A stretch of DNA of 22,740 bases from a virus, in IMG/VR virus record IMGVR_UViG_3300042322_000039, positions 1 to 22,740 of that record. One strand, given 5' to 3'. The notes under the pieces were generated by a model. It was given only the letters and a program-made list of their open reading frames with translations, was not told the origin of the DNA and made no database searches. This document shows positions 1 through 22,740 of the stretch, piece after piece (position 1 is the stretch's first letter; every line of letters starts with the position of its first letter). The translations under genes and the position numbers were made by a program.

Positions 1-1461
1 CGTGTAGGTCGAGAGCGAGAACGCTTCCGACAGGTTGACGGCGTTCTCCTGCGAGAGACGAAGCGCTCCCGAGGTGTACTGACGGAGAGCGAGCGACGAA
101 ACGAATGCGCACTCGTCCTTGTTCACCGAGTCAAGTCCAGCGTCAACGACGATGGGGATACCGGCGATGGATCCACGGAGTCCCGAAACGTTTGCCGAAC
201 CTGCGAAGCCAAGAGCTTCACCAGCGAACGAGATGACCGGGGTTCCATCAAGGGCAAGCAAGTCCTTGAAGGTGGCCTTGTCAACGACGAGGGCATCAAT
301 CTGCACACCGTTAGGCGTGAAGTAGGTTGCCGATGCGTCAGCAAGTGCGCCGACCCATCCGTCGTAGGTTCCAGCTGCAAGGGTGACCTTGTTGGTTGCG
401 ATGACCTGTGCTGCACAGACTGCTTGGTACTTGGTGCGCAGCTGCGTAGCAAGTGCCTTGCCGAGTCCGATTGCCTGACCACGGAGAACCGAGTTCAAGT
501 AGTCAACCGAGGAACGGTCGATAACCTGACGCGACAGTTCGGAGTAGTTTCCGACCGTGATGATGTTTTCGGTGAACGTGTCAAGGTTGAGCTGGTAGTA
601 ACCGAGGTCGTCACCTTCGGCAGCCTGTGTGGCCGTACCGTCGGTGATGCCATCGACAACAGCGAACGTGATTGTCATGCCGGTGGGGGGAGTAACTCCG
701 CGACCGAACACAGAACCGAGAGGGTTGGCTGCGTCAACGAGACGGATGAGGTCAACGTCGATGGGGGTCGTGATTGAGTCAGCGGTCGTTGCGCCAGTGT
801 AAGCGCGGACTGCATTCTCCTCGTTGGCAGCAAGTGCCTGAAGGAAGTGTCCAGCCGAACGGTAGGACGGTGCCGAAGGGGCTTCGACGGTGCCGAGAGT
901 TGAGATTTCACGCTCAACCATTTCAATACGCTCACGAACCTCGGCGAGTTCGGGAGTCAGGTCACGGATTTCATCCATGATTTCTCCTTTTTGTTCAGCC
1001 GATACAGGGATGTCCTGTTCGGGTTCGTCACGCAATTCCGTGACAGTCGCTCCCTCATACCAAGGGAACGAAACTAGTGAGACTTCACGCACGTAGGCAT
1101 CGGTGACGATGCGGTTGCGTTGTTCGTCGGTGGTGGACTTGCGCATGAGGAAGCCAACCGAGAAGCGGTTGATGACACCATCCTCGAGGAGTGCGATGGC
1201 ATCTTTGCCACGAGAGGTCTCGGAGATAGTTGCGCGAATCTCAAAGCCCTCGTCGGTGTGACGGCCTTCGATAATGCGACCAATAGGTTCCGACTTGTCG
1301 TGTTGCCACATAAGTTTGGCTTCGGGGTCAAGCGTGACCGAATCGCGGGCGAACATCTCGCCGTTCTCGAGCGTGCCGTAAGGGACAGCAATCCCAGCCA
1401 CCTCACGCTTGTCTTTGTCAGTGAGACGGAACTCCATCTCACGGGTCTCAAATTGTTCCAT
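1..1461 (-). CDS. HK97-type prohead protease fused to major capsid protein, copy A (3' end cut by window edge)
   Basis: The frame is open from the ATG at 1461 to the window edge, giving 487 codons. It matches copy B at 16869-18383, so about 17 residues are missing. An AGGAG sits 6 bases before the start. The portal stop at 1448 overlaps the start by 14 bp. The N-terminal part resembles HK97-family (U35) prohead proteases: His54 in the WQHDKSEPIGR segment and Ser101 in NRFSVGF are the likely catalytic residues. A charged, probably helical segment follows at about 160-195. From about 205 on the sequence is a HK97-fold capsid protein. A second strong ribosome site lies inside the gene at 976-989. 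The domain assignment is confident; protease catalysis is inferred from motif similarity. Confidence 0.93.
   Translation of the reverse strand, partial: MEQFETREMEFRLTDKDKREVAGIAVPYGTLENGEMFARDSVTLDPEAKLMWQHDKSEPIGRIIEGRHTDEGFEIRATISETSRGKDAIALLEDGVINRFSVGFLMRKSTTDEQRNRIVTDAYVREVSLVSFPWYEGATVTELRDEPEQDIPVSAEQKGEIMDEIRDLTPELAEVRERIEMVEREISTLGTVEAPSAPSYRSAGHFLQALAANEENAVRAYTGATTADSITTPIDVDLIRLVDAANPLGSVFGRGVTPPTGMTITFAVVDGITDGTATQAAEGDDLGYYQLNLDTFTENIITVGNYSELSRQVIDRSSVDYLNSVLRGQAIGLGKALATQLRTKYQAVCAAQVIATNKVTLAAGTYDGWVGALADASATYFTPNGVQIDALVVDKATFKDLLALDGTPVISFAGEALGFAGSANVSGLRGSIAGIPIVVDAGLDSVNKDECAFVSSLALRQYTSGALRLSQENAVNLSEAFSLSTYT
976..989 (-). promoter_or_regulatory. Internal Shine-Dalgarno and in-frame ATG inside protease-capsid gene, copy A
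   Basis: AAGGAG at 984-989 lies 5 bases before an in-frame ATG at 976-978 (codon 162 of the fusion). Initiation here would give a capsid protein that keeps the helical scaffold-like segment but lacks the protease. The site is identical in copy B. Function is inferred. Confidence 0.6.
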
Positions 1462-2581
1462 TGGGAACTCCTAACAGTGGCGCAAGCTTTTCGTCCTCAC
1501 GAACTTCGTCGATGGTCTTGAAGCCTGCTGCGATTGCAATCTGGTGGGCTTGGTAACGGGTAAGTGTGTCATTGCGGAGCAAAGCATCAATGTTCATGCG
1601 TGCGTCAGTGCCACGAGGCAACAGTGCGCTCATGGCCTGCTCAATCTCGACGTAGTAAGCAGAGAGGGAGTACCGGGTGAATGCAATCTGTTCCTGCTCA
1701 ACGTTTGAATAGGTCATGCTCGAGCCTGCTTCGGCGAGCATCATGTTGGCAGGAATGCCGAGTATGCGACAGACCTGTGAAGTGTTCCACTGCTGAACCT
1801 CAACAAACATTGCGTCACGAGGGTTCAGGAACAAGTTCTGAATCGACAATTCGGCAGGTGACACCACACTGCCACCAGTCTGCGCGTTGCGCAACGACTC
1901 GGCAATATCAATCAAAGTGTCAGGCGAGACAGGAACCTTCGGCGAAACAACCTGCGCAGCCATCCCCGAATCCGAGAACCACTTTGACGCAAAGTCGCGT
2001 GTGTCCTTTGAGTTGCGCAATTCCGCTTGACAAGCCTGAATCGGGCCCAGACCGTAAAGGTTGCCGGGCATGCTAAGCATCTTGAGGTGCTGAATCTCAT
2101 TAGGTTGGTATTCGGTAGTACCCCGATAGGTGTACCCGGTGAGTTCTCCGCTATCCGTTGACTCAATCAATATGTCGAATGGGTTCAGCACTTCAAGCTT
2201 GACCGTCTCGCCACGGCCATTGCGCGAGATACGCCAATAAGCGTTTCCGGCCACAGCCATCGAGTTGACAGTACGCGCCATAAACTCGGCACGGGTTATC
2301 TTGTCATCGGGTTGCTTTACCCACAACGGTGTCGACTCAAGCCGAACATCGTCACGGTAAAGGTGAACACCAATCTGCTTGATTGCGTTCGACAGAATTG
2401 AAACTCCACGGTAGACGGCAGCAATGCTGACCGCTTCGACAGTGTTGACCCCAGCCGATGCGGAGCGTGGCGGTGGAACAATAGACGAACGGGTTGAGAG
2501 TTCAGTGCCAAAATCGGACGCGACGGAACGCACCGTCTCGATTGCGCGAAGGGGGTTGAGGAAGTCTAAAAGGCTTGCCAT
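1448..2581 (-). CDS. Portal protein, copy A (377 aa)
   Basis: The portal is the dodecameric ring at the capsid vertex through which DNA is packaged and to which the connector binds. The assignment rests on the overall sequence (N-terminal SLLDFLNPLRA and PPRSASAG, then AVYRGVSILSNAIKQ, the NPFDILIES region, and a helical C-terminus), which resembles HK97-type phage portals. The position between large terminase and protease-capsid supports it. I chose the ATG at 2581. In-frame upstream codons exist to 2608, but they lie in a stretch that looks like a promoter (2582-2645). No Shine-Dalgarno precedes 2581, so a leaderless message is possible. Copy B differs at only five residues, all within about the first 50. 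The stop overlaps the capsid start. Confidence 0.93.
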   Translation of the reverse strand: MASLLDFLNPLRAIETVRSVASDFGTELSTRSSIVPPPRSASAGVNTVEAVSIAAVYRGVSILSNAIKQIGVHLYRDDVRLESTPLWVKQPDDKITRAEFMARTVNSMAVAGNAYWRISRNGRGETVKLEVLNPFDILIESTDSGELTGYTYRGTTEYQPNEIQHLKMLSMPGNLYGLGPIQACQAELRNSKDTRDFASKWFSDSGMAAQVVSPKVPVSPDTLIDIAESLRNAQTGGSVVSPAELSIQNLFLNPRDAMFVEVQQWNTSQVCRILGIPANMMLAEAGSSMTYSNVEQEQIAFTRYSLSAYYVEIEQAMSALLPRGTDARMNIDALLRNDTLTRYQAHQIAIAAGFKTIDEVREDEKLAPLLGVPNGTI

Positions 2582-2645
2582 ACGCAATAATCGTACCATA
2601 CGACGCAAGAATCTTGCGTGGCGTGTCTAAATTGTACGTTTTATG
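2582..2645 (-). promoter_or_regulatory. Conserved promoter-like spacer with palindrome upstream of portal, copy A
   Basis: This 64-bp non-coding spacer has one mismatch to copy B, although the flanking genes are diverged. On the minus strand an extended -10-like TGGTACGAT lies at 2590-2598, with eight bases between TACGAT and the portal ATG. A perfect 8+1+8 palindrome, ACGCAAGAATCTTGCGT, occupies 2603-2619, where a -35 region or operator would sit. I see no good -35 hexamer. Promoter and operator function are inferred. Confidence 0.45.
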
Positions 2646-2726
2646 TTATTGGCACGAATCGCACTGAAGATAATCCATTGGGTCAACGGGTGGGATGGGG
2701 TAACCATCAAGAGTCTGCTTATCCAT
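2646..2726 (-). CDS. 26-aa CxxC microprotein, copy A
   Basis: A short reading frame lies between large terminase and portal, ending in a CDSC (CxxC) motif after a PIPPVDP segment. Of the codons that differ from copy B, six changes are synonymous (Asp, Leu, Pro, Asp, Leu and Ser codons) and one is Tyr to Phe. That pattern indicates translation. No clear Shine-Dalgarno precedes the ATG; the frame begins 20 bases after the terminase stop, so translational coupling is likely. I do not recognise a family. A single CxxC could help bind metal in a dimer or complex, but no function can be assigned. Confidence 0.6.
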   Translation of the reverse strand: MDKQTLDGYPIPPVDPMDYLQCDSCQ

Positions 2727-2745
2727 AGAGGACTACATTATCAGG

Positions 2746-4170
2746 TCAGACCATAATCGTGCGAGTTGCCACAGCCTTCAGCGTTTCGGCACCATGACAA
2801 GCCAACAATGTTGCCATCACCGCGTCAATCTCCACGCTCGAGTCACGCCGCGAGATACGGAAGCCGTTGTCCAGCACCTTACGAACGGTGCGCGGAATCT
2901 GAACCGACAGCAACGGGTCCGGGGCATGTTTCAGTGTTTCATTCTTGAGACGGGCATGGAACGACGAACAAGCGCCGTTGATTTGAGAGTTCAGAATAAG
3001 TTCTGAATTGATACCACGGCGAATGAGTTCGTTGTGTAAATCCTTGAGCATGAGACCGTCCATGATGATAGCCCGGGGAGAGTGCTGGTGAAGTTGCTGT
3101 GCAACAAGCATCAACTTCTCCAGAGTAGGCTTGACAATCGATGCGACCAGTTCGGTGTGAATGACACCGTCAACCATTACAGCTGCGGCCACAGTTGCGA
3201 ATTCCCAGCCAGGGGAACGGTCAATACCGAACACAACCTGACCCGTCGGCAACGTGTCATCAATGCCACGCTCATTCTTGAGCCACAACGAGAACGGAAT
3301 GAACACATCCTTGGCGGTATTGACGAAACGGTTCAGCCGGTAACGGATGATGTCGTTGTCAGGTTCCGAGCGTGCATCCGACAGAACAAGTTTCGGGTCA
3401 ATGCGACCATCCTGCAACGCTGGTGACGCTTCCATCAACAGCGCCATAAACTCGTCATCATCGTCAGGCACAATGGCTTCTGACGCTTCCCATATCCATG
3501 CACCGAAACGGTCAAGGTCCCCGGCAATCGCTTTGTCAGCCATTCCGTAGAGTCGGGTCAATAGTTCGCTGTTCTCGTCCCCCGCTGTGGTTATGCCCAC
3601 GAGTATCGAGTTCGGGCGGGCTCCGAGCCCCGTTTGGAGTGCTGACCAGCTCGAGTCATCGACAAGGTGAACCTCGTCAATAATGCCAACCGAGATGGGA
3701 ATACCCTGCAACGCGGAAGCCTTTGACGCTTTGATTTCATAACGGCTACCCTCGTTAGTTCTAATCCCTCGAGTCTCCGTCAACTTCGTCATCATCGACT
3801 GGAGCGTCGGGTTCGCGTTGATAATGCGCAACACCCGGTCATGAACAAGACGGGCAAGGTCAACAGTGCTGGCAATACCGATGTTGTACTGGTTCGACTC
3901 ACGCAACAACGCCCAGATACCAATGGCCGTCACCAGTTCCGTCTTGCCATTCTGTCGCGGAACCGAGACCAGACAAGAACGCCACCGTAATTCGCCTGAC
4001 GGTAACAGTTCGGTAACGCGGCGCAGCAACTCACGTTGCCAAGAATCGAACTGAAACGGCTTCCCGTTCGCCACACTCCAGGCATACTCGAACGCTGGAA
4101 GATAACGGTCAATATCCGCAGCGAACTCGGGAGTCAGCGGTGGGGTATGACGTGCCGGACTAAAGACCAC
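2746..4170 (-). CDS. Terminase large subunit, copy A (474 aa)
   Basis: This is the ATP-driven packaging motor and nuclease. The Walker A-like VPRQNGKT is at residues 70-77 and the Walker B VGIIDE at 161-166, followed by a motif III-like GITTAGDE at about 192-199. The C-terminal nuclease domain shows FGIDRS with Asp317, a second acidic region near Asp371 (IIMDG) and Asp449 (EIDAVMA). It starts with GTG at 4170 and overlaps the small-terminase stop by 11 bp. Compared with copy B, the first about 280 residues carry about 43 substitutions by my count, while the last about 190 carry about five. The length is usual for a phage terminase. Confidence 0.96.
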   Translation of the reverse strand: MVFSPARHTPPLTPEFAADIDRYLPAFEYAWSVANGKPFQFDSWQRELLRRVTELLPSGELRWRSCLVSVPRQNGKTELVTAIGIWALLRESNQYNIGIASTVDLARLVHDRVLRIINANPTLQSMMTKLTETRGIRTNEGSRYEIKASKASALQGIPISVGIIDEVHLVDDSSWSALQTGLGARPNSILVGITTAGDENSELLTRLYGMADKAIAGDLDRFGAWIWEASEAIVPDDDDEFMALLMEASPALQDGRIDPKLVLSDARSEPDNDIIRYRLNRFVNTAKDVFIPFSLWLKNERGIDDTLPTGQVVFGIDRSPGWEFATVAAAVMVDGVIHTELVASIVKPTLEKLMLVAQQLHQHSPRAIIMDGLMLKDLHNELIRRGINSELILNSQINGACSSFHARLKNETLKHAPDPLLSVQIPRTVRKVLDNGFRISRRDSSVEIDAVMATLLACHGAETLKAVATRTIMV

Positions 4171-4390
4171 GGCGCAACAGTTCAGCCAACGGGTCCATAT
4201 CGACAGTCGCTCCTGGCCGTTCTTTCAAAAGTGAACGGTGAAGCACACCGAACTGCGCAATCAAGGCCGCAGTAACTTCCCGGTCAAGTTCGATGGCCAC
4301 GGCTTGCAACGCAACCACCGATGGTGCGTGCGCTGCAGTCAACCACGTCTCGTTTGCAATGAATTGCTGGACGGCGATTTCAAAGTTCAA
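4160..4390 (-). CDS. Probable terminase small subunit, copy A (76 aa, TTG start)
   Basis: A short, helix-rich protein directly upstream of the large terminase, with PSVVALQAVAIELDREV and a DPLAELLRR ending. This resembles small terminase-like proteins of actinophages, which bind packaging-site DNA and load the motor. I chose TTG at 4390 because AGGAG precedes it by 7 bases in both copies. A GTG at 4462 would extend the frame by 24 codons, but through the hairpin at 4457-4478, and four of the four base changes between copies there would alter residues, as expected of non-coding DNA. The family assignment rests on position and composition more than on a diagnostic motif. Confidence 0.72.
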   Translation of the reverse strand: MNFEIAVQQFIANETWLTAAHAPSVVALQAVAIELDREVTAALIAQFGVLHRSLLKERPGATVDMDPLAELLRRGL

Positions 4391-4514
4391 GGCTCTGCTC
4401 CTAAATGTTGGAAAGTTCGGGGATAAAAAGGAAGGGTAGGCGGCGGATTGGGGCAACCCCACTCAAAAAAGAGTGGGGATGTTTTACCGGTGGCCGCCCG
4501 TCACCGTTTGTTTG
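4391..4514. other. Non-coding packaging-region spacer between HNH and small terminase, copy A (possible cos region)
   Basis: A 124-bp gap in an otherwise gapless genome. Bases 4424-4478 are identical in copy B, whereas 4479-4514 are strongly diverged with a small indel. HNH nucleases beside terminases are known in HK97-like phages to take part in cos cleavage, so a packaging site here is plausible. I cannot see cohesive ends. Confidence 0.35.
4450..4478. terminator. Hairpin between HNH and small terminase, copy A
   Basis: A perfect 8-bp stem (CCCCACTC at 4457-4464, GAGTGGGG at 4471-4478) encloses a six-base A/T loop. GGGG at 4450-4453 can pair instead with CCCC at 4457-4460, an alternative fold. 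The minus strand after the stem reads TTGCCCC, so there is no U-tract. It may be a terminator or processing site between early and late genes, or part of the packaging site. Confidence 0.45.
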
Positions 4515-4778
4515 TTATGGGATGACCACCCCCCACCCCGGGTTAGTCCAGTTGAGTCGGGTGTTGATGCGGTCGGCTTTGGCACTGTTGCATCGACGGC
4601 AGCAGGCGATGAGGTTGCCGGGTTCGTTACCCCCACCTAGGGAGTGGGGTGTTATGTGGTCGACGGTGTCGGCATCGCCACCGCAGTATGCGCAGGTGTG
4701 TGCGTCACGTTCGAGGATGAATGCGCGTGTGCGTTTCCATTCGGCGGTGCGTAGGTCGGCTCTGTCTTTGGCTGGCAT
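4515..4778 (-). CDS. HNH endonuclease, copy A (87 aa)
   Basis: A small HNH nuclease with the zinc-binding knuckles CAYC and CRRC flanking a DHITPHSLGG segment and a conserved NL, the layout of the HNH fold. In HK97-like phages, HNH proteins encoded next to the terminase are required with TerL for specific genome cleavage during packaging; that role is inferred here from the neighbours. The ATG at 4778 overlaps the metallophosphoesterase stop (TAATG). An in-frame start at 4871 exists but lies entirely inside the upstream gene. Copy B differs at only a few positions, none of them in the zinc ligands. Confidence 0.92.
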   Translation of the reverse strand: MPAKDRADLRTAEWKRTRAFILERDAHTCAYCGGDADTVDHITPHSLGGGNEPGNLIACCRRCNSAKADRINTRLNWTNPGWGVVIP

Positions 4779-5953
4779 TAGATTACCTCGAGTCCTGTGA
4801 ACTCTCCGCCGGGTCGCGTTAGCATCAGGATTGCTCCGCGTTTGGCGACGTCTCCTGTTTTGTGTTTCCACCAGGTTGATTCTGATTCCATGGTTGGTGT
4901 GCAGAGAACAAGTCGGTCGCGTTTGGAACGTATGCTGAACTCATGTTCATGGCCGTGGACGAGGATATGACCAGCCTGCGCAGCGTGCAGATTGAATGAT
5001 TGACCCGCCCACCAATCCATCGACTTACCCCGCGCCCATTGGTGGCCATGTACCAAGACCATGACGGTACCTTGGAAGTCAATGACCAGATGGTCCTCGT
5101 CAATGGCCGGGACGTGTATCGTGACATGTTTGTATCTTTCGGGGTTTAGTGCAAGAGCTTCTGCAATGGCGATGGCTGCTTCTGTAGCGTGACCATCATC
5201 AGCTCTTGTTTCTTGGAATCGTTGGAGTTGGTCGTGGTTGCCGTTGACCACTGACAGCCACACTTGCGGTGCGGTGATAAATGCTTCGATGTGAGCGAGT
5301 AGCATTCGACGCAGAATCCGGGTTTGTTCAGTGACGGTAAGTCGTGAACGCCACATGTTGCGTCCGTTCTGTGATTGGTTGCCTTCGATACAGTCACCAA
5401 CCAGTGCGATATGAACCGGCGGTCGTCCAGCATTACGCCACCGGGTAACAGCAGTCTCCAGGGACTGGTTCCATCGTCGGATAATGCCAGCAGTCCCATC
5501 GCCGTCGAGGTCCTTACCGATTTGGGTGTCCCCGATAAGGAGATGAAGTACCACATTGGTGCTGGTCGTTGAGGGTTTAGCCGGTTTCTTTTTTCCAACC
5601 AGAGCAACAAGCTCGTCAATGCTCGATCGGTTAGCGTCCGGCTCAATGCGGAAACGGTAGAACCATGTCGGGCGCGTAACAGCGTCCGCACCAGCTGTGC
5701 TTCGTGTCCACCCGTGAGTTTGGTGACGGGCTTCAACCAGTACAGCGCGGTAGCCGGTGGGGATGACTCCGCCTTGAGCCAGGATGAATTGTTTGATTGC
5801 TTCATCGCCTTTTACCTGTTCTGTTGTTGTTGCTTCGATTGTTGATGATGATGGGTCGTGTGGATCGAACGATTGTGAGAATGTCCAGTCACCTGAACGT
5901 CCGGCCTTGATGGGCTTTGGTGTTGGTGTCTGGAGCAGTTCGCCGAGATCCAT
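4778..5953 (-). CDS. Calcineurin-like metallophosphoesterase, copy A (391 aa)
   Basis: The metallophosphoesterase core runs from about residue 135 to 345. Motifs in order: GDTQ (141-144), GDCIEG (186-191), NGNHD (237-241), HGH (302-304) and HGHEH (333-337). They supply the dimetal ligands. The first motif has Gln where many family members have His. The N-terminal 130 residues contain a low-complexity TSTTS/KKKPAK linker and an unrecognised small domain. Actinophages commonly encode such proteins; substrate is unknown, possibly DNA ends or nucleotides. The gene starts 3 bp after the HTH gene's stop with no clear Shine-Dalgarno, implying coupled translation. The part upstream of 5210 is identical to the piece in copy B. 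Confidence 0.9.
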   Translation of the reverse strand: MDLGELLQTPTPKPIKAGRSGDWTFSQSFDPHDPSSSTIEATTTEQVKGDEAIKQFILAQGGVIPTGYRAVLVEARHQTHGWTRSTAGADAVTRPTWFYRFRIEPDANRSSIDELVALVGKKKPAKPSTTSTNVVLHLLIGDTQIGKDLDGDGTAGIIRRWNQSLETAVTRWRNAGRPPVHIALVGDCIEGNQSQNGRNMWRSRLTVTEQTRILRRMLLAHIEAFITAPQVWLSVVNGNHDQLQRFQETRADDGHATEAAIAIAEALALNPERYKHVTIHVPAIDEDHLVIDFQGTVMVLVHGHQWARGKSMDWWAGQSFNLHAAQAGHILVHGHEHEFSIRSKRDRLVLCTPTMESESTWWKHKTGDVAKRGAILMLTRPGGEFTGLEVI

Positions 5954-16868: not shown

Positions 16869-17900
16869 TTACGGGGTCTGGTCGATGGGGATGATGAACG
16901 CAGGGTACTCGCCAGCGGTGGCCGTGTAGGTCGAGAGCGAGAACGCTTCCGACAGGTTGACGGCGTTTTCCTGCGAGAGACGAAGCGCTCCCGAGGTGTA
17001 CTGACGGAGAGCGAGCGACGAAACGAATGCGCACTCGTCCTTGTTCACCGAGTCAAGTCCAGCGTCAACGACGATGGGGATGCCGGCGATGGATCCACGG
17101 AGACCGGAGACGTTTGCCGAACCTGCGAAGCCGAGGGCTTCACCAGCGAACGAGATGACCGGGGTTCCGTCAAGAGCAAGCAAGTCCTTGAACGTGGCCT
17201 TGTCAACGACGAGGGCATCAATCTGCACACCGTTGGGGGTGAAGTAGGTTGCCGATGCGTCAGCAAGTGCGCCAACCCAGCCGTCGTATGTTCCAGCTGC
17301 AAGGGTGACCTTGTTGGTTGCGATGACTTGTGCTGCACAAACAGCCTGGTACTTGGTGCGGAGCTGGGTGGCGAGAGCCTTGCCGAGTCCGATTGCCTGA
17401 CCGCGGAGAACCGAGTTCAAGTAGTCAACCGATGAACGGTCGATAACCTGACGCGACAGTTCGGAGTAGTTTCCGACCGTGATGATGTTCTCGGTGAACG
17501 TGTCCAGGTTGAGCTGGTAGTACCCGAGGTCGTCACCTTCGGCAGCCTGTGTGGCCGTACCGTCAGTGATGCCGTCGACAACAGCGAACGTGATCGTCAT
17601 GCCGGTGGGGGGAGTAACGCCGCGACCGAACACCGAACCGAGAGGGTTGGCTGCTTCGACGAGACGGATGAGGTCTACGTCAACGGGGGTCGTGATTGAG
17701 TCAGCGGTCGTTGCGCCAGTGTAAGCGCGGACTGCGTTCTCTTCGTTGGCAGCGAGTGCCTGGAGGAAGTGTCCAGCCGAACGGTAGGACGGTGCCGAAG
17801 GGGTTTCGACGGTGCCGAGAGTTGAGATTTCACGCTCAACCATTTCAATGCGCTCACGAACCTCGGCGAGTTCGGGAGTCAGGTCACGGATTTCATCCAT
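16869..17900 (-). CDS. Nested capsid protein from internal start, copy B (343 aa, predicted)
   Basis: Initiation at codon 162 of the fusion would produce a protein of 343 residues: the scaffold-like helical segment plus the whole capsid domain. AAGGAG (17906-17911) lies 5 bases before this ATG, as good a site as that of the full gene. It would supply the several hundred capsid subunits without matching protease. A nested in-frame product is known for lambda C/Nu3, with a different domain partition. Translation from this site is predicted, not shown. Confidence 0.55.
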   Translation of the reverse strand: MDEIRDLTPELAEVRERIEMVEREISTLGTVETPSAPSYRSAGHFLQALAANEENAVRAYTGATTADSITTPVDVDLIRLVEAANPLGSVFGRGVTPPTGMTITFAVVDGITDGTATQAAEGDDLGYYQLNLDTFTENIITVGNYSELSRQVIDRSSVDYLNSVLRGQAIGLGKALATQLRTKYQAVCAAQVIATNKVTLAAGTYDGWVGALADASATYFTPNGVQIDALVVDKATFKDLLALDGTPVISFAGEALGFAGSANVSGLRGSIAGIPIVVDAGLDSVNKDECAFVSSLALRQYTSGALRLSQENAVNLSEAFSLSTYTATAGEYPAFIIPIDQTP

Positions 17901-18383
17901 GATTTCTCCTTTTTGTTCAGCCGATACAGGGATGTCCTGTTCGGGTTCGTCACGCAATTCCGTGACAGTCGCTCCCTCATACCAAGGGAACGAAACTAGT
18001 GAGACTTCACGCACATAGGCATCGGTCACAATGCGGTTGCGTTCTTCGTCTGTGGTGGACTTGCGCATGAGGAAACCAACCGAGAAGCGGTTGATGACAC
18101 CATCCTCGAGAAGTGCAATGGCATCCTTGCCACGCGCCGTTTCGGATATGGTTGCGCGAATCTCAAAGCCTTCGTCAGTGTGACGGCCTTCGATAATGCG
18201 ACCAATCGGTTCTGACTTGTCGTGTTGCCACATCAGTTTGGCTTCGGGGTCGAGCGTTACGGAGTCCCGAGCGAACATCTCGCCATTCTCCAGTGTGCCG
18301 TAAGGGACAGCGATGCCAGCGACTTCGCGCTTGTCCTTGTCAGTGAGACGGAACTCCATCTCACGGGTCTCAAATTGTTCCAT
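16869..18383 (-). CDS. HK97-type prohead protease fused to major capsid protein, copy B (504 aa)
   Basis: Complete version of the fusion partly seen at 1-1461. Protease part: residues 1 to about 155, with His54 (WQHDKSEPIGR) and Ser101 (NRFSVGF) at the likely catalytic positions. Coiled, charged delta/scaffold-like segment: about 160-195 (DLTPELAEVRERIEMVEREI). HK97-fold capsid: about 205-504, including the SELSRQVIDRSSVDYLNSVLRG spine region. An AGGAG precedes ATG 18383. In typical HK97-like phages protease and capsid are separate genes; fusion imposes equal amounts unless the internal start at 17900 is used. Confidence 0.95.
   Translation of the reverse strand: MEQFETREMEFRLTDKDKREVAGIAVPYGTLENGEMFARDSVTLDPEAKLMWQHDKSEPIGRIIEGRHTDEGFEIRATISETARGKDAIALLEDGVINRFSVGFLMRKSTTDEERNRIVTDAYVREVSLVSFPWYEGATVTELRDEPEQDIPVSAEQKGEIMDEIRDLTPELAEVRERIEMVEREISTLGTVETPSAPSYRSAGHFLQALAANEENAVRAYTGATTADSITTPVDVDLIRLVEAANPLGSVFGRGVTPPTGMTITFAVVDGITDGTATQAAEGDDLGYYQLNLDTFTENIITVGNYSELSRQVIDRSSVDYLNSVLRGQAIGLGKALATQLRTKYQAVCAAQVIATNKVTLAAGTYDGWVGALADASATYFTPNGVQIDALVVDKATFKDLLALDGTPVISFAGEALGFAGSANVSGLRGSIAGIPIVVDAGLDSVNKDECAFVSSLALRQYTSGALRLSQENAVNLSEAFSLSTYTATAGEYPAFIIPIDQTP
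17898..17911 (-). promoter_or_regulatory. Internal Shine-Dalgarno and in-frame ATG, copy B
   Basis: AAGGAG at 17906-17911, spacer of five bases, ATG at 17898-17900. The surroundings are identical to 976-989 in copy A. Confidence 0.6.
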
Positions 18384-19503
18384 TGGGAACTCCTAACAGT
18401 GGCGCGAGCTTCTCGTCCTCACGGACTTCATCGATTGTTTTGAAGCCTGCTGCGATTGCGATTTGGTGGGCTTGGTATCGGGTAAGTGTGTCGTTGCGGA
18501 GAAGTGCGTCGATGTTCATGCGTGCGTCGGTTCCACGTGGGAGCAGAGCGCTCATGGCTTGCTCAATCTCGACGTAGTAGGCAGACAGCGAGTACCGGGT
18601 GAACGCGATCTGTTCCTGCTCGACGTTCGAGTACGTCATGCTCGAGCCGGCTTCTGCCAGCATCATGTTCGCGGGAATCCCTAGGATGCGACAGACTTGC
18701 GAAGTGTTCCACTGCTGGACCTCGACGAACATCGCGTCACGGGGGTTCAGGAACAAGTTCTGAATTGACAACTCGGCAGGTGACACCACACTGCCACCAG
18801 TCTGCGCGTTACGCAACGACTCAGCAATATCAATCAACGTGTCAGGCGAGACAGGAACCTTCGGCGAAACAACCTGCGCAGCCATACCCGAATCCGAGAA
18901 CCACTTCGACGCAAAATCGCGGGTATCCTTCGAGTTTCGCAATTCCGCCTGGCACGCCTGGATAGGACCAAGGCCGTAAAGGTTGCCGGGCATGCTAAGC
19001 ATCTTGAGGTGCTGAATCTCATTAGGTTGGTATTCAGTAGTACCCCGATAGGTGTACCCGGTGAGTTCTCCGCTATCCGTCGACTCAATCAGAATGTCGA
19101 ATGGGTTCAGCACTTCAAGTTTCACAGTCTCACCGCGGCCATTGCGCGAAATACGCCAGTAAGCGTTTCCAGCCACAGCCATCGAATTGACAGTACGCGC
19201 CATAAACTCGGCACGGGTAATCTTGTCATCCGGTTGCTTTACCCACAAGGGTGTCGACTCAAGCCGAACATCGTCACGGTAAAGGTGCACACCAATCTGC
19301 TTGATTGCGTTCGACAGAATAGATACGCCACGGTAGACGGCGGCAATGCTCACAGCTTCGAGAGTGTTCACACCAGCCGATGCGGAACGGGGCGGTGGCA
19401 CGATACTTGATCGCGTTGTCAGTTCGGTGCTGAATTCGGACGCGACTGAACGCACCGTCTCGATTGCTCGGAACGGGTTCAGGAAGTCCAGAAGGCTTGC
19501 CAT
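18370..19503 (-). CDS. Portal protein, copy B (377 aa)
   Basis: Second allele of the portal at 1448-2581. The protein differs at five positions (Leu/Phe, Asp/Glu, Gly/Ser, Ser/Thr, Val/Leu), all near the N-terminus, although the nucleotide sequence differs at many third positions. The ATG at 19503 again lacks a Shine-Dalgarno and follows the conserved promoter-like spacer. The stop overlaps the capsid start by 14 bp as in copy A. Confidence 0.93.
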   Translation of the reverse strand: MASLLDFLNPFRAIETVRSVASEFSTELTTRSSIVPPPRSASAGVNTLEAVSIAAVYRGVSILSNAIKQIGVHLYRDDVRLESTPLWVKQPDDKITRAEFMARTVNSMAVAGNAYWRISRNGRGETVKLEVLNPFDILIESTDSGELTGYTYRGTTEYQPNEIQHLKMLSMPGNLYGLGPIQACQAELRNSKDTRDFASKWFSDSGMAAQVVSPKVPVSPDTLIDIAESLRNAQTGGSVVSPAELSIQNLFLNPRDAMFVEVQQWNTSQVCRILGIPANMMLAEAGSSMTYSNVEQEQIAFTRYSLSAYYVEIEQAMSALLPRGTDARMNIDALLRNDTLTRYQAHQIAIAAGFKTIDEVREDEKLAPLLGVPNGTI

Positions 19504-19567
19504 ACGCAATAATCGTACCATACGACGCAAGAATCTTGCGTAGCGTGTCTAAATTGTACGTTTTATG
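19504..19567 (-). promoter_or_regulatory. Conserved promoter-like spacer with palindrome upstream of portal, copy B
   Basis: Same elements as 2582-2645: extended -10-like TGGTACGAT at 19512-19520 and the ACGCAAGA/TCTTGCGT palindrome at 19525-19541. One base differs from copy A, just beyond the palindrome. Confidence 0.45.
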
Positions 19568-19648
19568 TTATTGGCAGGAATCGCACTGCAAGAAGTCCAT
19601 CGGGTCAACGGGTGGGATGGGGTAACCATCGAGAGTCTGCTTGTCCAT
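19568..19648 (-). CDS. 26-aa CxxC microprotein, copy B
   Basis: Same length and stop as copy A. The only residue difference is Phe for Tyr before the Leu-Gln-Cys-Asp-Ser-Cys-Gln end; the other six base-changed codons are synonymous. It sits 20 bases after the terminase stop. Confidence 0.6.
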   Translation of the reverse strand: MDKQTLDGYPIPPVDPMDFLQCDSCQ

Positions 19649-19667
19649 AGAGGACTACATTATCAGG

Positions 19668-21092
19668 TCAGACCATGATCGTGCGAGTGGCCACAGCCTT
19701 CAGCGTTTCCGCACCATGACAAGCCAAGAGTGTGGCCATCACCGCGTCTATCTCCACGCTCGAGTCACGCCGCGAAATACGGAACCCGTTGTCTAGCACC
19801 TTGCGAACGGTTCGCGGAATCTGAACAGACAGCAACGGGTCCGGTGCGTGCTTGAGCGTTTCGTTCTTGAGCCGGGCATGGAACGAGGAGCAAGCACCGT
19901 TTATCTGCGAGTTCTGAATAAGTTCTGAATTGATACCACGACGGACAAGCTCGGTGTGTAGATCCTTGAGCATCAGACCGTCCATGATGATAGCCCGGGG
20001 AGAGTGCTGGTGGAGTTGTTGTGCGACGAGCATCAACTTTTCCAGAGTCGGCTTCACAATGGATGCGACCAGTTCGGTGTGGATGACACCGTCAACCATT
20101 ACAGCTGCGGCCACAGTTGCGAACTCCCAGCCAGGGGAACGGTCAATGCCAAAGACAACCTGACCGGTCGGCATGACATCGTCGATGCCACGCTCGTTCT
20201 TGAGCCACAACGAGAACGGGATAAACACATCCTTTGCGGTGTTCACGAATCGGTTCAGCCGGTACCGGATAACATCCAGGTCGGGTTCTGATCGCGCATC
20301 AGACAGAACAAGCTTCGGGTCAATGCGACCGTCTTGAAGTGCAGGGTTGGCTTCGGTAAGTAACGCCATAAACTCGTCATCGTCATCGGGGACAATGGCT
20401 TCGGATGCTTCCCATATCCACGCACCAAAGCCTTCGAGTTCTCCAGCGATTGCCTTTTCGGCCATGCCATACAGTCGAGTCAAAAGTTCGGAGTTCTCGT
20501 CCCCTGCTGTTGTGATGCCACAGAGCATTGAGTCGGGTCGACTGCCGAGCCCGGTCTGAATGGCCGACCAGCTTGCATCATCAACCAAGTGCACTTCATC
20601 AATGATTGCAATTGAAACGGGGATACCTTGAAGGCTGTTTGCTTTAGACGTTTTGATTTCATATCGCGTTCCCTCGTTAGTTCGGATACCACGAGTCTCG
20701 GTAATCTTTGACATCATCGACGAGAACGTCGGGTTGGCATTGATAATGCGCAACACTCGGTCGTGGACAAGTCGAGCCTGCTCAACGGTCGACGCAATAC
20801 CGATGTTGTATTGATTTGGTTTCCGCATCAGAGCGAGCAGTCCGATTGCTGTTGCTAATTCTGTTTTGCCGGATTGTCTTGGGACGCTGATTATGCAACC
20901 TCTCCACCTCAAGGTCCCGTCTGGTAACAGTTCGGTAACGCGGCGCAGCAGCTCACGTTGCCACGGGTCGAACCGAAACGGCTTCCCGTTTGCAACAGTC
21001 CAGGCATACTCGAACGCTGGCAGGTAACGGTCAATGTCGGCCGCAAAGTCTGGGGTCAGTGGCGGTGTGTGACGTGCAGGGCTAAATACCAC
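19668..21092 (-). CDS. Terminase large subunit, copy B (474 aa)
   Basis: Second allele of the packaging motor, same length as copy A. Walker A reads VPRQSGKT here (Ser for Asn), Walker B AIIDE. The nuclease residues Asp317, Asp371 and Asp449 are retained. GTG start at 21092 overlaps the small terminase. The ATPase half differs from copy A far more than the nuclease half at protein level. Confidence 0.96.
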   Translation of the reverse strand: MVFSPARHTPPLTPDFAADIDRYLPAFEYAWTVANGKPFRFDPWQRELLRRVTELLPDGTLRWRGCIISVPRQSGKTELATAIGLLALMRKPNQYNIGIASTVEQARLVHDRVLRIINANPTFSSMMSKITETRGIRTNEGTRYEIKTSKANSLQGIPVSIAIIDEVHLVDDASWSAIQTGLGSRPDSMLCGITTAGDENSELLTRLYGMAEKAIAGELEGFGAWIWEASEAIVPDDDDEFMALLTEANPALQDGRIDPKLVLSDARSEPDLDVIRYRLNRFVNTAKDVFIPFSLWLKNERGIDDVMPTGQVVFGIDRSPGWEFATVAAAVMVDGVIHTELVASIVKPTLEKLMLVAQQLHQHSPRAIIMDGLMLKDLHTELVRRGINSELIQNSQINGACSSFHARLKNETLKHAPDPLLSVQIPRTVRKVLDNGFRISRRDSSVEIDAVMATLLACHGAETLKAVATRTIMV

Positions 21093-21312
21093 GACGCAAC
21101 AGTTCAGCCAACGGGTCCATATCGGCTTGCACGCTTGGCCGTTCTTTCAGCAACGACCGGTGGAGCACACCGAATTGCGCAATCAAGGCGGCAGTCACTT
21201 CCCGGTCAAGTTCGATGGCCACGGCTTGCAATGCAACAACCGATGGTGCGTGCGCTGCAGTCAACCACGTTTCGTTTGCAATGAATTGCTGGACGGCGTT
21301 TTCGAAGTTCAA
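21082..21312 (-). CDS. Probable terminase small subunit, copy B (76 aa, TTG start)
   Basis: Second allele of 4160-4390. It keeps the AGGAG and TTG start, the ALQAVAIELDREV helix and the DPLAELLRR end; changes cluster just before DPLAEL (SVQAD for GATVD) and at the first residues. The GTG at 21384 is again inside the hairpin. Confidence 0.72.
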   Translation of the reverse strand: MNFENAVQQFIANETWLTAAHAPSVVALQAVAIELDREVTAALIAQFGVLHRSLLKERPSVQADMDPLAELLRRGI

Positions 21313-21439
21313 GGCTTTGCTCCTAAATGTTGAAAAGTTCGGGCGTAAAAAGGAAGGGTAGGCGGCGGATTGGGGCAACCCCACTCAAAAAAGAGTGGGG
21401 ACTTTATGCGAGGGGACAGACCACCCACGATTGTTTATG
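21313..21439. other. Non-coding packaging-region spacer, copy B (possible cos region)
   Basis: Counterpart of 4391-4514. The portion 21346-21400 is identical to copy A, while 21401-21439 is replaced by largely unrelated bases and is 3 bp longer. The hairpin is included. Confidence 0.35.
21372..21400. terminator. Hairpin between HNH and small terminase, copy B
   Basis: Identical to the copy A hairpin: CCCCACTC at 21379-21386 and GAGTGGGG at 21393-21400 with an A6 loop on the plus strand, and the alternative GGGGCAACCCC fold at 21372-21382. Confidence 0.45.
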
Positions 21440-21703
21440 TTATGGGATGACTACCCCCCACCTGGGGTTCGTCCAGTTGAGGCGTGTGTTGATGCGGTCT
21501 GCTTTGGCAGAGTTGCATCGTCGGCAGCAGGCGATGAGGTTGCCTGGTTCGTTACCGCCACCGAGGGAGTGGGGGATGATGTGATCTACAGTGTCTGCCA
21601 CCCCCCCGCAATATGCGCACGTTTCAGCATCTCTGGCGAGGATGAATGCGCGTGTGCGTTTCCATTCGGTGGTGCGTAGGTCGGCTCTGTCTTTGGCTGG
21701 CAT
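21440..21703 (-). CDS. HNH endonuclease, copy B (87 aa)
   Basis: Second allele of 4515-4778, same length. The CAYC and CRRC knuckles and DHIIPHSLGG are intact. The start at 21703 overlaps the metallophosphoesterase stop (TAATG). Changes such as Glu/Ala and Asp/Val avoid the zinc and active-site positions. Confidence 0.92.
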   Translation of the reverse strand: MPAKDRADLRTTEWKRTRAFILARDAETCAYCGGVADTVDHIIPHSLGGGNEPGNLIACCRRCNSAKADRINTRLNWTNPRWGVVIP

Positions 21704-22740
21704 TAGATGACCTCGAGTCCTGTGAACTCTCCGCCGGGTCGCGTTATCATCAGGATTGCTCCGCGTTTGGCAACGTCACCTGTTTTGTGTTTCCACCATG
21801 TTGATTCTGATTCCATGGTTGGGGTGCAGAGAACAAGTCGGTCGCGTTTGGATCGTATGCTGAACTCATGTTCATGGCCGTGAACGAGGATATGACCAGC
21901 CTGCGCAGCGTGCAGATTGAATGATTGACCCGCCCACCAATCCATCGACTTACCCCGCGCCCATTGATGGCCATGTACCAGGACCATGACGGTACCGTTG
22001 AAGTCAATGACCAGATGATCCGAGTCCACTTCCGGGACGTGTATCTTGACATGTTTGTACCTTTCGGGGTTTACTGCAAGAGCATCTGCAACCGCGATGG
22101 CCGCTTCTGTAGCGTGACCATCATCAGCTCTTGTCTCTTGGAATCGTTGGAGTTGGTCGTGGTTGCCGTTGACCACTGACAGCCACACTTGCGGTGCGGT
22201 GATAAATGCTTCGATGTGAGCGAGTAGCATTCGACGCAGAATCCGGGTTTGTTCAGTGACGGTAAGTCGTGAACGCCACATGTTGCGTCCGTTCTGTGAT
22301 TGGTTGCCTTCGATACAGTCACCAACCAGTGCGATATGAACCGGCGGTCGTCCAGCATTACGCCACCGGGTAACAGCAGTCTCCAGGGACTGGTTCCATC
22401 GTCGGATAATGCCAGCAGTCCCATCGCCGTCGAGGTCCTTACCGATTTGGGTGTCCCCGATAAGGAGATGAAGTACCACATTGGTGCTGGTCGTTGAGGG
22501 TTTAGCCGGTTTCTTTTTTCCAACCAGAGCAACAAGCTCGTCAATGCTCGATCGGTTAGCGTCCGGCTCAATGCGGAAACGGTAGAACCATGTCGGGCGC
22601 GTAACAGCGTCCGCACCAGCTGTGCTTCGTGTCCACCCGTGAGTTTGGTGACGGGCTTCAACCAGTACAGCGCGGTAGCCGGTGGGGATGACTCCGCCTT
22701 GAGCCAGGATGAATTGTTTGATTGCTTCATCGCCTTTTAC
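21703..22740 (-). CDS. Calcineurin-like metallophosphoesterase, copy B (5' end cut by window edge)
   Basis: Reading frame enters from the window edge at the codon equal to residue 47 of copy A and runs to the stop at 21703. All metal-binding motifs are present (GDTQ, GDCIEG, NGNHD, HGH, HGHEH). The part from 22136 to the edge is base-identical to copy A; only the C-terminal part carries substitutions (for example EVDSDH for AIDEDH). Confidence 0.9.
   Translation of the reverse strand, partial: VKGDEAIKQFILAQGGVIPTGYRAVLVEARHQTHGWTRSTAGADAVTRPTWFYRFRIEPDANRSSIDELVALVGKKKPAKPSTTSTNVVLHLLIGDTQIGKDLDGDGTAGIIRRWNQSLETAVTRWRNAGRPPVHIALVGDCIEGNQSQNGRNMWRSRLTVTEQTRILRRMLLAHIEAFITAPQVWLSVVNGNHDQLQRFQETRADDGHATEAAIAVADALAVNPERYKHVKIHVPEVDSDHLVIDFNGTVMVLVHGHQWARGKSMDWWAGQSFNLHAAQAGHILVHGHEHEFSIRSKRDRLVLCTPTMESESTWWKHKTGDVAKRGAILMITRPGGEFTGLEVI

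Follow-up and report, generated by a model that had tools for sequence, protein, structure and literature searches.

In phage lambda, the protease gene C contains a nested gene, Nu3, which is read in the same frame from a start of its own up to the common stop codon. In phage HK97, the gp4 protease and the gp5 capsid protein are encoded by neighbouring genes, and the delta segment is at the N terminus of the major capsid protein (MCP); the mature HK97 protein begins at residue 104, and the N-terminal segment before this residue has about 102 residues. In-frame nesting is also found in herpesviruses, where UL26.5 overlaps UL26 with the same 3' end, and where the protease is at the N terminus that only the longer product has (PMC4498786). 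For the cytomegalovirus counterpart of these genes, separate 3'-coterminal transcripts are named in the title of a reference cited in that paper.

In the available parts of four publications, a protease-scaffold-capsid fusion encoded by a single gene is presented as notable and as frequent among siphoviruses that have very small genomes (PMC5513430, PMC7302621, PMC9671004, PMC11749239). An inner start is not mentioned in these parts, and it is possible that it has been reported elsewhere, including for the Gifsy-2 and Lactococcus phage 1706 genes that are discussed below. Hundreds of phage records have this gene annotated as encoding one protease-capsid fusion product, which leaves the problem of one protease per capsid subunit. 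Here, such a gene is analysed in a virus contig of 22,740 nucleotides (IMG/VR record IMGVR_UViG_3300042322_000039, positions 1 to 22,740), referred to as the window. From sequence comparisons it is probable, at roughly 85%, that this is a two-product gene, from which a protease-MCP fusion would be made in the minority and a nested MCP of 343 residues (36.0 kDa) in the majority.

Organization of the fusion gene and of the record

The fusion ORF has 504 codons and is on the minus strand, and the nested capsid ORF has the same frame and the same stop codon (Table 1). The 22.7-kb contig covers a 16.9-kb unit, which is the repeat period of the window, about 1.34 times. Two copies of this phage unit are arranged head to tail (window positions 1-5818 and 16923-22740), being mostly 85-97% identical across the first 3.4 kb. 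The doubled layout represents either two strains joined by assembly or a real tandem, and is probably due to assembly. A layout resembling this doubling is seen in IMGVR_UViG_3300042342_000476 (17842 bp), which has two different fusion genes, one per end (L039, 1-4971, and L124, 13397-17842), 76% and about 66% identical to that of the window, respectively. The period of about 16.9 kb and the 15-18-kb contigs of the relatives agree with the small genomes (about 15-18 kb) of the siphoviruses that have such fusions.

Table 1. Coordinates of the features of the fusion gene and its inner start site in the window
Feature	Position	Strand	Remarks
Protease-capsid fusion ORF	16869..18383	-	Pfam Peptidase_S78, phrog_2263 major head protein
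Fusion start ATG	18383-18381	-	Overlaps 3' end of portal gene (18370-19530)
Full-length-start SD AGGAG	18390..18394	-	6-nt spacer, -6.8 kcal/mol, below inner SD (-8.7)
S78 prohead protease domain	17961..18323	-	Residues 21-141, Pfam
Inner Shine-Dalgarno (SD) AAGGAG	17906..17911	-	Kept in 65 relatives
Inner start codon ATG (codon 162)	17898..17900	-	ATG/GTG in all relatives
Proposed nested capsid gene	16869..17900	-	343 codons, 36.0 kDa; putative product
Predicted helix 172-189, delta/scaffold-like, after inner start	17817..17870	-	AlphaFold2, low confidence here
HK97-fold capsid core	16872..17687	-	Residues 233-504; Foldseek, VIA-align
CTCGCCGAGGTTCG	17857..17870	-	About 10 codons after inner start, within the gene's lowest synonymous variation
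AAGGAG-AAATC-ATG, identical copy	976..989	-	In second, truncated gene copy
Second fusion-gene copy, truncated	1..1461	-	Closely related strain; protein 99% identical

Domains and fold of the fusion protein

The fusion protein has the N-terminal protease that is characteristic of small-siphovirus fusions, as shown by a match of residues 21-141 to Peptidase S78 (PF04586; Pfam, E=2.3e-15), and it matches the fused head-protein family phrog_2263 (major head protein) over residues 14-503 (E=2e-60). The S78 protease and an HK97-fold MCP are present in one ORF without a stop between them, as is typical of a fusion gene. When searching by sequence, no close solved structure of the fusion protein was found. 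In the AlphaFold2 model (mean pLDDT 64), a protease-like β domain extends up to residue 129, residues 131-171 are of very low confidence and without regular structure, and these are followed by a helix (residues 172-189) and then by the C-terminal domain. The earlier note had placed the inner start exactly at the break between the protease and a scaffold-like segment, and this is approximately right but not exact, when considering that the S78 match ends at residue 141, that the unstructured region covers residues 131-171 and that the helix begins at residue 172.

Residues 233-504 match HK97 and other phage capsids (Foldseek, E down to 8e-11), and when superimposed on residues 119-383 of HK97 Prohead II (2gp1) they give a Z score of 16.3 and an rmsd of 4.0 Å for 231 aligned residues (VIA-align). 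In the register of this alignment, HK97 residue 104 corresponds approximately to residue 217 of the fusion, and therefore initiation at the inner start would add about 55 residues to the N terminus of the MCP. As judged from the predicted structure, this segment is probably a short counterpart of the delta segment, which is about 102 residues long in HK97.

The proposed inner start site of the window

The sequence AAGGAG, five nucleotides before an in-frame ATG at codon 162, is found exactly as the earlier note had it, with the spacer AAATC. The 14-nucleotide repeat of this site, to which the same note drew attention, is indeed identical, but it is not independent evidence, because it sits in the near-identical second copy of the gene. 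The mass of the inner product, put there at roughly 37 kDa, is close to the value computed for the 343 residues.

The anti-SD pairing energy of the inner site (-8.7 kcal/mol) is the strongest among the 195 internal ATG and GTG codons in the 23 genes of the window, and no other of these codons reaches -8 kcal/mol or below. It is also better than at 22 of the 23 assumed gene starts of the window. When neighbouring codons are permuted, such a site is modestly unlikely (p=0.0195); with a chance probability of about 0.02 for the site alone, the case rests on the comparison with relatives. The RNA at the inner site is no more accessible than in synonymous recodings (mean z 0.28).

Conservation of the site in 65 relatives

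The relatives comprise 65 non-redundant complete fused genes from two IMG/VR scans, with pairwise identities of 42-99% and forming 15 clusters at 80%; a search of the genome contig collection yielded no relatives. A split protease/MCP version was not found among the IMG/VR relatives that were examined. As anticipated in the earlier note, which looked to homologous fusions for conservation beyond what the codons need, SD and start codon are kept in all 65 genes, and a loss in close homologues is not seen. At the junction, 36 genes have ATG and 28 have GTG (64 of 65), each with an SD. The remaining relative (L046) had seemed to lack the site, but this is an alignment artefact: AAGGAG-ATTCCT-ATG, with a 6-nt spacer, is present a few codons earlier and had been misaligned. 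Of the 64 aligned sites, 63 have an SD of the form AAGGAGG, AAGGAG, AGGAGG, GGAGG or AAGGGGG at a distance of 5-6 nt upstream of the start, and one has GGAG at 9 nt.

The junction valine is encoded by GTG in 28 of 28 genes, as compared with 10.9% for the other valine codons. Other Met/Val columns of the alignment have mixed valine codons, and the only other column in which valine is exclusively GTG is the start codon of the ORF itself. At least 11 changes between ATG and GTG have occurred at the junction codon when considering parsimony on the tree; because a single mutation converts ATG into GTG, some of the GTG bias could have a mutational cause. The SD is preserved in two reading registers, AAA GGA GAA encoding K-G-E and AAG GAG GAA encoding K-E-E. 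It is also preserved through changes of the peptide: K-G-E is found as AAAGGAGAA and as AAGGGGGAA, K-E-E as AAGGAGGAA, and the relatives have M-E-E, Q-E-E and K-E-Q as further peptides at this position. The linker upstream of the site varies in its residues and in its length, from 21 to 31 codons, and the spacing between SD and start is nearly constant. Taken together, the registers, the linker length and the GTG-only valine are decisive in indicating that the feature conserved at the junction is the start signal and not the peptide.

This is also in agreement with the synonymous variation, which for codons -4 to 0 is 0.20 of expectation versus a median of 0.81, being the third lowest among 526 five-codon windows. 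In most of the 37 genes for which inner and outer SDs were compared, pairing is stronger at the inner SD (-8.3 to -11.9 kcal/mol) than at the outer SD, and the outer start codon is often TTG or GTG; a difference of this kind is expected if more MCP than protease is required.

The region of low synonymous variation is wider than the start site. In the 65 relatives it spans about -20 to +12 codons, and its minimum, which is that of the gene, is at +8 to +12, outside the SD. This would be expected if another overlapping element, such as a DNA or RNA signal or a recombination junction, were the conserved feature and SD and ATG were incidental, but both peptide and nucleotides vary freely between the inner start and codon +8, and the structure signal is not consistent: local folding z-scores near the inner start are mixed and there is no hairpin signal at +8 to +12. 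As the sole explanation such an element is therefore highly unlikely; a second element could coexist with the inner start. In the same region, CTCGCCGAGGTTCG (CTC GCC GAG GTT CG, codons for L-A-E-V-R) is nearly without synonymous variation in the 65 relatives. When it is considered as a repeated regulatory site and the second copy of the gene is left aside, its near matches are no more numerous than expected by chance.

Distant fusions and split relatives

An ATG or GTG with an SD-like stretch is also present at the protease-capsid junction of more distant fusions, of which those of cluster EE and Barebow have 33-37% protein identity to the window protein. It is found in Orlajensenviridae (Microbacterium cluster EE, phiExGM16), in Barebow and in Arthrobacter AN, in Root, Sputnik, Adaia, Emperor, Piku, GMA5, Schiebs and Berka, and in McGonagall, BlueFeather, RRH1, Corgi and ScienceWizSam (AU). 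These are cultured phages with annotated fusions, including Gordonia phages and Rhodococcus RRH1. In cluster EE and several of the others, pairing at the SD is weak (-4 to -6 kcal/mol), and another in-frame candidate is sometimes stronger. The single permutation p values range from 0.005 to 0.25 and the combined p is about 3e-8 for 17 representatives; the sites were picked by position, and therefore this is support but not decisive. In Curtobacterium phage Barebow, gene 4 (L052:1226-1495), annotated as a cyclic nucleotide sequestering protein of the anti-defence type, is located between the portal and the fusion gene.

In a second fusion family, the corresponding H-x-E-rich stretch contains GAAGGAGAAGATAAC-GTG in Lactococcus 1706 and CAGAAGAGGACAAC-ATG in ReqiPoco6. 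The tblastn searches with the window protein gave no match to this larger AU/ReqiPoco6/Lactococcus 1706 family. In orf10 of Lactococcus phage 1706 (L147:586-2646), which has a low-GC host, an in-frame GTG at codon 171 follows AAGGAG, and this gene is a good independent test case for a nested start. The Gifsy-2 ClpP-capsid gene (L146:2472-4562) has in-frame ATG codons at positions 186 and 221, near the end of the protease part, with strong SD-like stretches (-8.7 and -8.8 kcal/mol, respectively); in this unrelated protease-capsid gene a nested start is possible.

Moraxella Mcat9 has a split pair, in which the coat (MCP) gene begins within an ATGA overlap at the protease stop, its SD being located in the protease gene. 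The separate MCP gene of Vorrps has its own SD and starts just before a helical N-terminal segment (the helix being judged from the sequence). The MCP genes of these split relatives begin at a place equivalent to the inner start, and the arrangement seen in the window would result if the stop codon were lost and the MCP start kept. Right after such a fusion event, SD and ATG are expected to be present as a relic of the ancestral separate capsid gene, with only the full-length fusion being made and cut by its own protease. Such a relic would decay, however, and SD and ATG/GTG are kept in 65 genes that are as little as 42% identical, with a GTG-only valine and within a drifting linker, making it very improbable that the site is only a remnant.

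SD-like stretches have also been proposed to slow ribosomes, which is disputed. It is even less probable that the site serves such pausing without initiation, allowing the protease to fold before the capsid domain, for although it is within the inter-domain linker, pausing needs no start codon at a fixed spacing, and the ATG/GTG is invariant at 5-6 nt downstream with its valine always being GTG.

Proposed expression of two products

In the proposed two-product scheme, initiation at 18383 would generate a 54-kDa protease-MCP fusion, and initiation at the inner SD and ATG (17900) would generate the 36-kDa MCP precursor, which would have a short N-terminal delta-like segment but lack the protease. 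The inner SD is the stronger one, and therefore nested MCP should be made in the larger amount, with the fusion as a minority subunit. We infer that the fusion co-assembles with the nested MCP, such that its own capsid domain would bring the protease into the procapsid, where the protease would cleave the N-terminal segments and thereby also release itself. Dual initiation fits as an explanation of the stoichiometry, in which many shell subunits and few proteases would be needed; the conserved inner start would be a simple answer to the problem of one protease per subunit.

It is moderately probable that dual initiation is a general rule for phage protease-MCP fusions, in both the small actinobacteriophages and the AU/ReqiPoco6/Lactococcus 1706 family, the shell being built mainly from MCP that is started internally, with the protease delivered by a full-length minority of the subunits. 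The inner start also suggests how fusions may arise, by loss of the stop codon while the capsid start is kept, and in cultured Microbacterium and Arthrobacter phages the position annotated as the beginning of the capsid precursor may need correcting.

Comparison with known systems

The small-siphovirus fusions (Microbacterium EE, Arthrobacter AN, Gordonia CW/DM, Rhodococcus RRH1) are like the window gene in having the same gene order, S78 protease and HK97-like MCP in one ORF, and a small genome. They are published and annotated as one fusion product (PMC7302621, PMC5513430), and the available parts of their descriptions do not mention an inner start; inner sites are present there too, with an SD that is usually weaker. 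In HK97 and Moraxella Mcat9, protease and MCP are adjacent as in the window, but as separate genes and without a fusion product.

The inner ORF shares frame and stop with the fusion and has its own conserved initiation signal (SD and ATG/GTG in 65 of 65), as expected of an in-frame nested assembly gene like those of lambda C/Nu3 and UL26/UL26.5. In lambda, however, only scaffold is made from the inner start and a separate gene encodes the MCP, and in UL26/UL26.5 the shared part is scaffold and not capsid protein, whereas in the window it is the MCP itself that would be made from the inner start. For the cytomegalovirus counterpart separate 3'-coterminal transcripts are named, whereas in the window an SD would do it. 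The inner ORF is not restricted to scaffold but holds the whole HK97-fold core, and therefore the gene would work like the scaffold-only nested genes, yet it is not a member of that class. The principle of lambda C/Nu3 and UL26/UL26.5 would in this way be extended to the capsid protein itself.
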